A DNA stretch of 64,000 nt, taken from contig JASJBI010000004.1 of NCBI GenBank assembly GCA_030066595.1, forward strand, positions 62,001 through 126,000. The letters run 5' to 3'. The DNA is from Alphaproteobacteria bacterium. Its GTDB lineage: Bacteria; Pseudomonadota; Alphaproteobacteria; JAJFFI01. Every line of letters starts with the position of its first letter. Position 1 is the first letter of the stretch. Positions 15,307 to 23,249 of this stretch are shown here, piece by piece. A program made the position numbers and the translations under genes. The notes below the pieces were generated by a model. That model did no database searches and was not told where the DNA came from. It saw only the letters and a list, made by a program, of their open reading frames with translations.

Positions 15307-15339
15307 CGAGGTGGGACGGGGAGTTACCGTCCCACCTCG
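15307..15339. terminator. Strong hairpin ending the catabolic operon
   Basis: CGAGGTGGGACGG (15307-15319) and CCGTCCCACCTCG (15327-15339) form a perfect 13-bp stem with a 7-base loop, 10 bases after the cyclase stop. AAAAA lies just before the stem, giving a T-run on the opposite strand, so it could act in both directions. The downstream T-run (TTTTT at about 15361) is too far for a classic + strand terminator. Confidence 0.65.
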
Positions 15340-15450: not shown

Positions 15451-16986
15451 ATGCAGAACACAGAGGCGTCGCCCCAAACTGAAGCGCAAGCAGGCTCATC
15501 CGAACCAGACGCAACCGCGGAACAGGGCTCGGATATCCAGTCCGAGATCCAGGGCCTGCAGGAAGAGATCGAGAGGGTCGGCACGGTCGCCGACCAGATC
15601 GAGCACATCGCCAAGCAGACCAATCTCCTCGCCTTGAACGCCACGATCGAGGCGGCCCGGGCCGGCGATGCCGGCAAGGGGTTCGCCGTGGTGGCGGGCG
15701 AGGTCAAGCAGCTTGCCGGCCAGACCAGCCGTGCCACGACGGAGATTACCGAGACGCTCCAGAAGCTCACGGACCGCGCCGTGCGGCTGGCCACCTTCGG
15801 CGAGCAGATCCAGACGCAGCTGGACAAGGCTGTCTCGGGCGCGCCCGTCAGCGAACCCGTGGCCGCCGCGGCGTCGCCCGCTGAGACCAGCGAGCCGGAG
15901 TCCTCGCCGACTGTCGTGCCGATTCGCGAGCCGGAACCGGAAGCCGCCGCGCCCGCACCCAAACCGGAACCGGCGGTCGCCCCGCCCGCGCCAAAACCGG
16001 CGGCGCCGGCCGCGGAAGACGGGCCGATCACGGCGCAGCAGAAGGCGCTGGTGCAGGAAACCTTCGCCAAGGTTGACCCAATCGCAGAACAGGCCGCCGA
16101 GCTGTTCTACAAGCGCCTGTTCGAGCTGGACCCGTCGCTGCGGGACCTGTTCAAGGTGGACATCATGGAACAGGGGCGGAAGCTCATGTCCACGATGAAG
16201 GTGGCTGTGGCGGGGCTCGACGATCTGGGCAAGCTGGTGCCGGTCCTCGAGGCGCTCGGCGCCAAGCACAAGGCCTATGGTGTGGTCCAGCAACACTACG
16301 ACACGGTCGGAGAGGCGCTGCTGTGGACCCTGGAACAGGGCCTGGCGGACGCGTTCACCGACGAAGTGCGTGACGCCTGGGTCGCGGTCTATGGCCTGGT
16401 CGCGGAGCACATGCTGCGCGCCGCGGAGAGTGCGCCCGGGCCTGCCGACATGACCAAGCCCGCGCCGGCACCCGCCGAACCGGCAGCGCCGAAGGCTGCC
16501 GCTCCCGCTGCCCCAGCAGAGGAGGCCGCGCCGGCCGTACCGGCCGAGTCGGCCCCGGCGGAGGCGGAAAGCCCGATCACCGCGCGACAGAAGGCGCTGG
16601 TCCAAGAGACCTTCGCCAAGGTCGAGCCCATCGCCGAGCAGGCGGCGGAGATGTTCTACAACCGTCTCTTCGAACTCGACCCGTCCCTCAAGAAGCTGTT
16701 CAAGACGGACCTGAAGGAGCAGGGCCGCAAGCTCATGGGGACCTTGAAGGTCGCGGTGGCCGGGCTCGACGATCTCGCCAAGCTGAAGCCCGCGCTGGAG
16801 GCGCTCGGCGTGCGCCACAAGGACTACGGGGTCAAGGACCAGCACTATCTGACCGTGGCCAAGGCGCTGCTCTGGACGCTGGAGCAGGGCCTGGGCGACG
16901 CCTTCACCGAGGAGGTGCGGGAAGCCTGGACGGCGGTCTACAGCGTGCTGGCCGCCGCCATGATCGAGGCGGCCGCGGCGGCCTGA
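15451..16986 (+). CDS. Chemoreceptor signalling tip fused to two tandem globin domains
   Basis: This 511-residue soluble protein begins with an acidic lead. A short copy of the methyl-accepting chemotaxis hairpin tip follows at about residues 38-110, with [16 protein letters not shown] and [15 protein letters not shown]. It has no membrane helix, HAMP domain or full coiled-coil stalk. After a Pro/Ala/Glu-rich linker, globin 1 spans about 193-328 and globin 2 about 376-511, joined by a second Pro/Ala-rich linker. Both globins keep the bacterial-globin haem set: B10 Tyr (220, 403), E7 Gln (241, 424) and proximal His (273, 456). They align without gaps at clearly high identity, so they arose by duplication. 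Classic globin-coupled sensors have the globin first; here the order is reversed. It may be a haem-based O2/NO sensor that docks on chemoreceptor arrays or CheA/CheW. The gene stands alone. Confidence 0.9.
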
Positions 16987-17489: not shown

Positions 17490-18743
17490 ATGAAGGTCCT
17501 GGTGCTGGGCAGCGGCGTGGTCGGCGTGACCGCCGCCTACTTCCTCGCGCGCGACGGCCACGAGGTGACCGTCATCGACCGCCAGCCCCGCGCCGCCAAC
17601 GAGACCAGCTTCGCCAATGCCGGCCTTGTGGCGCCCGGGCACGCCTATGCCTGGGCCTCGCCCAAGGCGCCCAAGATCCTCTGGAAGTCGCTGTTCAGCC
17701 CGGACCAGGCCCTGCGCCTGAAGCTGCGCGCCGATCCGCGCATGTGGGCGTGGTTCCTCTTGTTCCTGCGCCAGTGCACGGCCGAGCGTGCCCGCGCCAA
17801 CACCATCAACAAGCTGCGCCTGTGTCTGTATTCGCGCGAGCGGCTGCACGACATCGTCGCCGACACGGATGTGGCGTTCGACGGGCAGGGCGGCGGCTGC
17901 ATCTATGTCTACCGGACGCCGGAAAACTTCGAGGCGGGCGTCGCCCATACGGGGATTCTCCGGGACAACGGCATGCCGCTCGAGGTACTCGACCCCGATG
18001 GCGCGGTCGAGAAGGAGCCGGCGCTCGATCCGGTCAAGCACAAGATCGCCGGCGCCATCTTCGCGCCGCTGGACGAGAGCGGCGACGCCCACATTTTCTC
18101 GAATGGGCTCGCCGACCATTGCCGGGAGAAGCTCGGCGTCACCTTCGCTTTCGAGACCACCATCCGGGCCATCGACGTCGAGGGCGACCGGGTTCGGCGT
18201 GTGGTAACCGACAAGGGCGACCACATGGCGGACGCCTATGTCCTGTCGCTCGGCTGCGACAGCCCGTTCCTGGCCCGGCCGATCGGCATCAAGCTGCCGA
18301 TCTATCCGGTCAAGGGCTACTCGGTGACCCTGCCGGTCGGGCAACGCAACGCGGCCCCGGTGATGGGCGGCGTCGACGAGGAGAACCTGGTGGCCTGGGC
18401 GCGGATGGGGGACCGCATTCGGCTGACCTCGACGGCCGAGTTCTCGGGTTATGACCGCAGCCACAAGCCGGAGGACTTCCGCGCCATGTTCGCCGCGGCC
18501 CGCGATCTGTTCCCGGACGCGGCGGATTACGACCAGCCGAGCTATTGGGCGGGGCTCCGTCCCATGACGCCCGAGGGCACGCCCTTCCTGGGCAAAGCGC
18601 TGTACGAGAACCTGTTCCTGAACACCGGCCAGGGCCACATGGGCTGGACCATGGCGCACGGCTCGGGGAAGATCACCGCCGATCTGGTGGCCGGGCGGGC
18701 GCCGGAGATCGACCTGGCGGGCATGACGCTGGCGGATCGGTAG
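17490..18743 (+). CDS. dadA: D-amino acid dehydrogenase small subunit
   Basis: This 417-residue FAD-dependent enzyme oxidises D-amino acids to 2-oxoacids, feeding electrons to the respiratory chain. The dinucleotide-binding motif VLGSGVVGVTAAYFLARDG is at the N-terminus, followed by RQPRAANETSFANAGLVAPG. The C-terminal FAD contact region reads [29 protein letters not shown] ribosome-binding site precedes the ATG. The last 75 codons and the downstream tail are duplicated twice further on (20805-21107 and 22870-23249), so this 3' end is a recombination or insertion focus. The gene itself looks intact. Confidence 0.95.
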   Translation: MKVLVLGSGVVGVTAAYFLARDGHEVTVIDRQPRAANETSFANAGLVAPGHAYAWASPKAPKILWKSLFSPDQALRLKLRADPRMWAWFLLFLRQCTAERARANTINKLRLCLYSRERLHDIVADTDVAFDGQGGGCIYVYRTPENFEAGVAHTGILRDNGMPLEVLDPDGAVEKEPALDPVKHKIAGAIFAPLDESGDAHIFSNGLADHCREKLGVTFAFETTIRAIDVEGDRVRRVVTDKGDHMADAYVLSLGCDSPFLARPIGIKLPIYPVKGYSVTLPVGQRNAAPVMGGVDEENLVAWARMGDRIRLTSTAEFSGYDRSHKPEDFRAMFAAARDLFPDAADYDQPSYWAGLRPMTPEGTPFLGKALYENLFLNTGQGHMGWTMAHGSGKITADLVAGRAPEIDLAGMTLADR

Positions 18744-18894
18744 GCAGCCCCCGATTCGGGTTGGGTCTCAGTTGGAACCCGAATGCCCAATATCGGCCAG
18801 AAACGGCTGATCGGGTCGGGTGCCTGGAGGGCCGGTTTCAGATCAGAAAGCCGACGTTTGCCCGGCGCGGCGGGGACGGTGGAAACTGACCCAT
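18519..18894 (+). repeat. Direct repeat copy A: dadA 3' end plus downstream tail (parental copy)
   Basis: Copy A is the authentic dadA 3' end and its tail to the boundary GGTGGAAACTGACCCAT. The segment 18597-18743 reappears at 20805-20951 (offset 2208) and 18519-18743 reappears at 22870-23094 (offset 4351), both without indels in the coding part. The tail contains a hairpin (ATTCGGGTT with AACCCGAAT), probably the dadA terminator. The noncoding tail of A differs at many positions from B and C, which are nearly identical to each other. Cargo block 1 begins immediately after this copy. Confidence 0.93.
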
Positions 18895-18902
18895 AGCGAA
18901 AA

Positions 18903-20804: not shown

Positions 20805-20951
20805 GCGCTGTACGAGAACCTGTTCCTGAACACCGGCCAGGGCCACATGGGCTGGACCATGGCGCACGGCTCGGGGAAGATCACCGCCGATCTGGTGGCC
20901 GGGCGGACGCCGGAGATCGACCTGGCGGGCATGACGCTGGCGGATCGGTAG
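20805..20951 (+). pseudogene. dadA 3' fragment in repeat B
   Basis: The last 48 codons and stop of dadA are preserved in frame ([20 protein letters not shown] onward), with one substitution (AGRT for AGRA) compared with the full gene. There is no start codon or N-terminal FAD domain, so it cannot encode a working enzyme. Confidence 0.9.
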
Positions 20952-21107
20952 GCAGCCGGCCCCCCACTTCGGGTAGGGTCCCAGTTGAAACCCGAATGCC
21001 CAGAATCGGCCAGAAACGTCCGGTCGGGTCGGGTGCCTCATCGGCCGGTTTCGGATCAGAAAGCCGACCTTTGGCTGGCGCGGCGGGGACGGTGGAAATT
21101 GACCCAT
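20805..21107 (+). repeat. Direct repeat copy B: dadA 3' end plus tail
   Basis: About 300 bases match copy A, starting at GCGCTGTACGAGAAC and ending at GGTGGAAATTGACCCAT. The tail is nearly identical to copy C and more diverged from copy A. A hairpin (TTCGGGT at 20968-20974, ACCCGAA at 20990-20996) is kept. The copy separates cargo block 1 from cargo block 2. The right end falls at the same base position of the repeat as in A and C, whereas the left ends differ. Confidence 0.92.
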
Positions 21108-22869: not shown

Positions 22870-23094
22870 GCGGCGGATTACGGCCAGCCGAGCTGTTGGG
22901 CGGGGCTCCGTCCCATGACGCCCGAGGGCACGCCCTTCCTGGGCAAAGCGCAGTACGAGAACCTGTTCCTGAACACCGGCCAGGGGCACATGGGCTGGAC
23001 CATGGCGCACGGCTCGGCGAAGATCACCGCCGATCTGGTGGCCGGGCGGACGCCGGAGATCGACCTGGCGGGCATGACGCTGGCCGATCGTTAA
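22870..23094 (+). pseudogene. dadA 3' fragment in repeat C
   Basis: The last 74 codons of dadA are kept in frame, ending in TAA instead of TAG ([10 protein letters not shown] then stop). A few substitutions (QLGWP-like YGQPSCWAGL for YDQPSYWAGL, GSAK for GSGK) distinguish it. It lacks the N-terminal two thirds of the enzyme. Confidence 0.88.
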
Positions 23095-23249
23095 GCCGCC
23101 GGCCCCCCACTTCGGGTAGGGTCCCAGTTGAAACCCGAATGCCCAGAATCGGCCAGAAACGTCCGGTCGGGTCGGGTGCCTCGTTGGCCGGTTTCGGATC
23201 AGAAAGCCGACCTTTGGCTGGCGCGGCGGGGACGGTGGAAATTGACCCA
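22870..23249 (+). repeat. Direct repeat copy C: dadA 3' end plus tail
   Basis: This copy matches dadA from the GCGGCGGATTACG segment (18519 in the parent) to the end of the tail at GGTGGAAATTGACCCA. It carries 78 bases more dadA sequence than copy B. Its tail agrees with B at almost every position. After it comes about 190 bases of noncoding DNA and then the ArsR-metallothionein operon, so C marks the right border of the accessory region. Confidence 0.92.

Follow-up and report, generated by a model that had tools for sequence, protein, structure and literature searches.

Alphaproteobacterial proteins joining a bare chemoreceptor hairpin tip to flavohemoglobin-family globins: probable gas-handling plug-ins of chemosensory arrays

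INTRODUCTION

The stretch of alphaproteobacterial DNA analyzed here (64,000 nucleotides, termed the window herein) encodes a protein in which part of a chemoreceptor is followed by two globins, which raises the question of what such an assembly senses and to what it reports. Globin-coupled sensors are defined by an N-terminal sensor globin and a C-terminal output domain (PMC13401364; PMC1457004), and in HemAT a conformational change of the globin passes through a middle region to the signaling domain (PMC13401364). A sequence-only reading of the locus had called its product an inverted globin-coupled sensor, and we asked whether this label fits.

RESULTS

Layout of the gene and its product

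The gene is a single unbroken frame of 511 codons on the + strand. Its features, with the evidence for each, are as follows.

15451..16986, + strand: tip-globin-globin gene, 511 amino acids (ORF list; Pfam; codon signature)
15502..15834, + strand: chemoreceptor hairpin tip, residues 18-128, containing a motif of 31 protein letters (Pfam MCPsignal; AlphaFold helix; matches to MCP fragments)
15835..16026, + strand: linker 1, disordered Pro/Ala/Glu, 64 residues (69% P/A/E; pLDDT < 50 at residues 130-190)
16027..16425, + strand: globin 1, residues 193-325, with TyrB10 220, PheCD1 234, GlnE7 241, and HisF8 273 (Pfam Globin; HMM bounds; HGbI fold)
16426..16575, + strand: linker 2, disordered Pro/Ala/Glu, about 48 residues (81% P/A/E; pLDDT < 50 at residues 332-372)
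16576..16974, + strand: globin 2, residues 376-508, with TyrB10 403, PheCD1 417, GlnE7 424, and HisF8 456 (Pfam Globin; tree sister of globin 1)
15307..15339, no strand assigned: 13-bp stem-loop between the upstream cyclase gene and the tip-globin-globin gene (pattern scan, consensus match only)

Pfam matched the central part of MCPsignal to residues 16 to 128 (E 1.2e-26, profile positions 8 to 120 of 172) and Globin twice (E 4.1e-36), and the same scan found no HAMP domain; no transmembrane segment was found in the protein either (maximum 19-residue Kyte-Doolittle mean, 1.45). These E values, and the finding of the same architecture in other, independent genomes (see below), rule out a chance match. 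The GC3 of the gene is 0.87, compared to 0.89 to 0.92 in its neighbors, and corresponds to the coding signature of the genome. The fusion is not the product of a frame error or a chimeric assembly: it is found in independent MAGs, and the window gene is read in one continuous frame with host-like codon use.

The AlphaFold model shows a helical region at residues 18 to 128, disorder at 130 to 190 and 332 to 372, and two compact helical domains, with overall scores (mean pLDDT 72, pTM 0.33) that are expected for beads on a string. The predicted protein is a small soluble tip with two globins on floppy linkers. The sequence-only reading had described much the same layout, with Pro/Ala-rich linkers and a tip free of membrane and HAMP regions, but had confined the tip to residues 38 to 110, which is too short. 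Measured against a chemoreceptor, the protein has, as judged at the level of sequence and profile only (MCPsignal E 1e-26; matches to solved tips), the conserved hairpin tip by which chemoreceptors contact CheA/CheW and form trimers of dimers. By the Pfam and hydrophobicity scans and the limited extent of the profile match, it lacks the transmembrane/HAMP and methylation (adaptation) regions, the arms of the tip being about 55 residues long.

The stem-loop upstream of the gene is terminator-like on the − strand, with a T tail and a symmetric stem, and suggests that the gene may be its own transcription unit. A cyclase-family gene lies upstream, and RidA-like and DadA-like genes lie downstream; because these neighbors are metabolic, the genomic context is uninformative on function. 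Further downstream, the window contains three copies of a 300-nt stretch (18597-18896, 20805-21104, and 22948-23247), two of them 97% identical and one 64%, which overlap the 3′ end of the DadA-like gene and represent a repeated partial duplication.

The globins belong to the flavohemoglobin/single-domain family

Both globins carry the full set of heme-ligand residues that the sequence-only reading had listed (Tyr220/Gln241/His273 and Tyr403/Gln424/His456), with Phe234 and Phe417 at position CD1. Together with the myoglobin fold, TyrB10, GlnE7, PheCD1, and HisF8 are the hallmarks of F-family single-domain globins. Foldseek aligned the window globin to oxygen-bound Hell's Gate globin I (HGbI; 3s1i) with a TM score of 0.95, an rmsd of 1.0, and 41% identity. 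The Pfam family related to sensor globins, Protoglobin, scored far below the cutoff (E 0.48), and the best NCBIfam match was a flavohemoprotein whose equivalog cutoff was missed; the FAD/NAD reductase domain of flavohemoglobins is absent from the protein in the Pfam scan. By these sequence and fold comparisons, the window globins are members of the flavohemoglobin/single-domain (F) family and not of the sensor family. From the conserved ligands and the fold, we infer that O2 is a ligand of their hemes, as NO and CO probably are.

The two globins had been called near-identical. They share 75% protein identity, with a dS of about 1.0 and a pN/pS of 0.29, values that exclude a recent duplication and indicate an old one kept under constraint. 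The two window globins are each other's sisters in a globin tree (99/92), and the same holds for the pair of a second tip-globin-globin protein, L040 (100/97), so that the tandem state either arose separately in the two or the copies were homogenized. Two tandem F-family globins without a tip were also seen in Bacteroidota (L060, L061, L066, and L070), the duplication being common to these genera.

The architecture recurs across alphaproteobacteria

A domain-architecture search for an MCP signal followed by two C-terminal globins had been proposed along with the first reading. Searches for tips combined with globins gave 11 other fused genes, all of them alphaproteobacterial. They came from two approaches. 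Named genomes were scanned with the globin alignment, and the tip motif was then sought in the same frame (yielding L040, L046, L056, and L099, with L056 and L011 being one locus); a class-wide search of 385 genomes with a tip-globin model yielded L154 to L160 and, in addition, 10 free tips without a globin (105 to 168 amino acids). The tip-globin-globin order of the window recurs in L040 (519 amino acids, from a Hyphomicrobiales MAG), and the tip-globin order is found in L046, L056, L154, L156, and L157. The reverse order occurs as globin-tip in L158, L159, and L160, of which L159 lies near a contig end and has an incomplete tip, and as globin-globin-tip in L099. In the tip-tip-globin protein of L155 (8324-9442, − strand), a single globin comes after two chemoreceptor tips in a row. 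The survey of the order to which the window's genome belongs comprised two genomes; none of 10 other genomes in the order of G113, a bearer of a tip-globin gene, contained a further member at the threshold used; and a phylum-wide survey returned globins, but no further tip-globin fusion was evident among the matches listed.

The pN/pS values were 0 to 0.23 in pairs of orthologous members and 0.20 to 0.29 in nonidentical orthologue or repeat pairs, and 0 to 0.21 for the free tips; the low values in orthologue pairs indicate that the proteins are kept by purifying selection. The globin-tip proteins group together in the globin tree, in a clade (100/93) apart from the tip-globin ones. Five label changes are needed on this tree, of which the supported branches force only one; as to whether the fusion had one origin or several, the two domain orders speak for two events or more. 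The two fusion orders and the three tandem cases suggest that the same two modules were paired more than once.

Two other arrangements came up during the survey. In G113, the tip-globin gene is followed on the same strand by a stand-alone protoglobin gene (L154:9473-9970), so that two globin families lie side by side. Elsewhere, an F-family globin stands at the N-terminal side, before PAS or dCache-HAMP and then a complete MCP (L044:5962-8352, L052, L054, L080:5998-8616, and L108:1290-3626), a second globin-chemoreceptor arrangement that is likewise outside the sensor-globin family.

The tips appear to form a lineage of their own with a near-invariant contact motif

In a tree of 57 tips, whose rows were picked for their resemblance to the window tip and which is based on 97 columns only, a 96/86 branch split the 22 short tips from the 35 tips of full-length receptors. 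A label test required one change in 94% of the bootstrap trees, and none of 500 shuffles gave a value as low. The short tips thus appear to be a lineage separate from the tips of full-length receptors. The closest full-length tips in the tree are those of receptors of the L005 type. L005 itself (1189-2601) is a soluble receptor of 471 amino acids in the window's genome, with an N-terminal half that contains the MCP domain and a C-terminal stretch of about 200 residues that matches no Pfam family.

Across the family, a motif of 30 protein letters is nearly unchanged, and this CheA/CheW-contact motif is the most conserved part of the proteins; its glutamate and arginine correspond to E385 and R388 of Tsr. 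Glu67 and Arg70 are among the conserved residues of the window tip. The best sequence matches of the window tip among solved structures include the receptor fragments in 3ur1 and 4jpb (85 and 90 residues), which are fragments of T. maritima Tm14 solved in complex with CheA-CheW. These fragments cover the same region at a similar length and share a motif of 22 protein letters with the window tip; they are man-made truncations of a longer receptor, whereas the window tip is a naturally encoded truncated form.

Chemotaxis genes are enriched in bearer genomes

The window's genome has one CheA, one CheW, flagellins, and eight MCPsignal genes (the window gene and seven others). By sequence reading, its CheA and CheW genes adjoin ChpT-like, CtrA-like, and flagellar export genes. 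The CheA gene (G000:C2:73281-74153) has two CheW-like matches and lies beside the separate CheW gene; the CheA of most bearers is alike in this respect, with two CheW-like matches, a frame of about 900 to 1,000 amino acids, and a separate CheW adjoining.

A CheW domain was found in 17 of the 19 sampled bearer genomes, compared to 178 of 385 genomes (46%) in the class (Fisher P = 8e-5); counted by family, the figure is 11 of 13 bearers (P = 0.005). The genomes of L040, L046, and L099 also carry CheA/CheW. A CheW-domain gene was absent from two bearers, G113 (98% complete) and G045 (97%); flagellin was absent from the former and present in the latter. Each of the two encodes three full receptors, so that missing contigs or a recent loss of CheA/CheW may be the reason, and CheW is present in G215 and G305, relatives of G113. 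A CheA-independent role for the tip proteins is possible.

No che cluster was found around members in the regions examined, and the neighbors of tip-globin members differ in every lineage. The neighborhoods gave no consistent operon clue: kinase genes adjoin some members only.

DISCUSSION

Relation to known heme sensors and receptors

The window protein is outside the globin-coupled sensors as these are defined. Its tip precedes its globins, with both orders among its relatives, and the globins belong to another family than the S-family globins of these sensors (Globin E 4e-36, compared to Protoglobin E 0.48, with HGbI as the nearest solved structure). The name inverted globin-coupled sensor is therefore a poor one, as the globins are F-family, are attached at either end in relatives, and are connected to the tip by no helical path from the heme.

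Sensors of the HemAT type (HemAT of B. subtilis, HemAT of H. salinarum, and Atu1027 of A. tumefaciens) resemble the window protein in being soluble and in combining a heme globin with a chemoreceptor signaling region; gas input to CheA would be a further likeness, which for the window protein we propose here. HemAT-type sensors have one N-terminal sensor-family globin and a complete signaling domain (PMC13401364), whereas the window protein has two C-terminal F-family globins, a tip only, and disordered linkers, and some of its relatives are reversed. The solved globins nearest to those of the window in both sequence and fold, HGbI (3s1i) and a globin of Methylacidiphilum (3wfw), are of the F type, and the latter is annotated as a Roadblock/LC7 fusion and so also has a nonreductase partner; unlike the window protein, both are single globins with no chemoreceptor part. 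The five proteins of the second arrangement (L044, L052, L054, L080, and L108) combine a related F-family globin with an MCP region, as the window protein does, but their globin is N-terminal, their signaling domain is complete, and PAS or dCache-HAMP lies between. AerC of A. brasilense and other cytoplasmic receptors are soluble receptors that join polar arrays (PMC13401364), but they have other sensor domains and a full signaling domain. Among 5.39 million open-access papers, we found no description of an F-family globin on a bare chemoreceptor tip or of a natural tip-only receptor, nor any earlier characterization of this architecture. The window protein is made of known parts of heme-based chemosensing, assembled in a way of which these papers gave no record.

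A tip that may dock globins at arrays

The reading that we favor, with a probability of roughly 0.5, is that the tip docks in chemosensory arrays and holds O2/NO-binding globins at CheA-CheW, where their ligand state probably biases the output. The hairpin tip, that is, the protein-interaction end of a chemoreceptor alone, would dimerize, and the dimers would join trimers of dimers or CheA-CheW. The two F-family globins, on their floppy tethers, would bind O2 at their hemes, with NO and CO as further probable ligands. Since the two ends of a hairpin point the same way, a globin attached to either end would sit at the same place, which would explain the free domain order. Ligand state would then probably bias the packing of receptors or the output of the kinase, acting by steric effects or by association of the globins, with no stiff-helix transmission of the kind seen in HemAT.

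Docking is plausible given the fragments of 85 to 90 residues in CheA-CheW structures, the near-invariant motif, and the report that soluble kinase-control-module fragments of receptors activate CheA in E. coli (PMC3570549, citing Ames 1996). The idea that the tip could insert into arrays had already been put forward; its fragment-like size, the contact motif, and the enrichment of CheA/CheW among bearers strengthen it as a prediction. The disorder of 64 and about 48 residues, and the placement of globins on opposite ends in relatives, favor tethering over helical transmission: because the hairpin ends lie together, position is preserved and helical phase is lost. With tethering, any effect of gas would act through association or crowding. 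Gas-dependent modulation of the kinase by the window protein is plausible; how a signal would cross linkers of this length is difficult to envisage. Docking at CheA-CheW is also at odds with the two bearers that show no CheW-domain gene (G113 and G045) and gains nothing from the gene neighborhoods, as no member was in a che cluster in the regions examined.

Alternative explanations

Local scavenging of O2 or NO is the main rival to gas-dependent signaling, and the two are indistinguishable from sequence. The tip would here be an address tag that parks high-affinity globins at the pole, for uptake of O2/NO near receptors or the motor, and would not signal. We consider this unlikely, but it has the most in its favor among the alternatives: flexible linkers and free domain order fit a cargo better than a switch, the globins were duplicated in three lineages (those of the window and of L040 seemingly on separate occasions), and they are kin to globins of the HGbI/VHb type, which bind O2 tightly and perform NO chemistry. 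It is weakened by the 10 globin-less free tips, which show that the tip has some role alone, and by the lack of a reductase domain beside the globin.

Those free tips, conserved as their pN/pS values indicate, count in favor of a dominant modulator, in which the tip competes with full receptors for CheA/CheW, or dilutes them, and so sets array gain, with the globin adding redox or gas dependence. In E. coli, receptor variants are reported to jam teams of mixed receptors or to titrate CheA/CheW (PMC4692393), and soluble fragments activate CheA (PMC3570549). We saw no sign of expression high enough for competition, and this explanation overlaps with array docking, from which it differs only in the direction of the effect; we regard it as rather improbable.

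The least probable alternative, by a small step, is a function outside chemotaxis, with the tip as a dimerization or scaffold hairpin for other, sometimes adjacent, kinases: L046 lies 14 bp upstream of a CHASE-histidine kinase-receiver gene, L157 lies 5 bp upstream of a membrane histidine kinase gene, L160 lies upstream of a receiver-like gene, and G113 and G045 lack detectable CheA/CheW, but neighbors differ by lineage and are metabolic in the window, the CheA/CheW-contact motif is the most conserved part, and CheA/CheW is enriched among bearers.

Implications for chemosensory arrays

The tip/globin proteins found across alphaproteobacteria are probably a real and previously undescribed kind of gas-handling array plug-in. 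More tentatively, and with somewhat less confidence than we place in docking by the window protein, the entire detached-tip lineage of this class may consist of array plug-ins, used alone or with one or two globins at either end. If so, the composition of arrays and their responsiveness to gas would be set by interchangeable, tip-borne cargo as well as by complete receptors. In the described HemAT-type chemosensors, the signal runs from the globin along the helical signaling domain to the tip. The existence of a conserved family that is tip-only, tethered by disordered linkers, and free in domain order would mean that natural arrays accept tip-only subunits and can recruit cargo through them. 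Two questions would become open to test: how small a piece of a receptor suffices for joining or steering an array in vivo, and whether an array can be affected by gas binding with no rigid transmission path. The tip itself would be a ready-made, naturally selected array-targeting tag.
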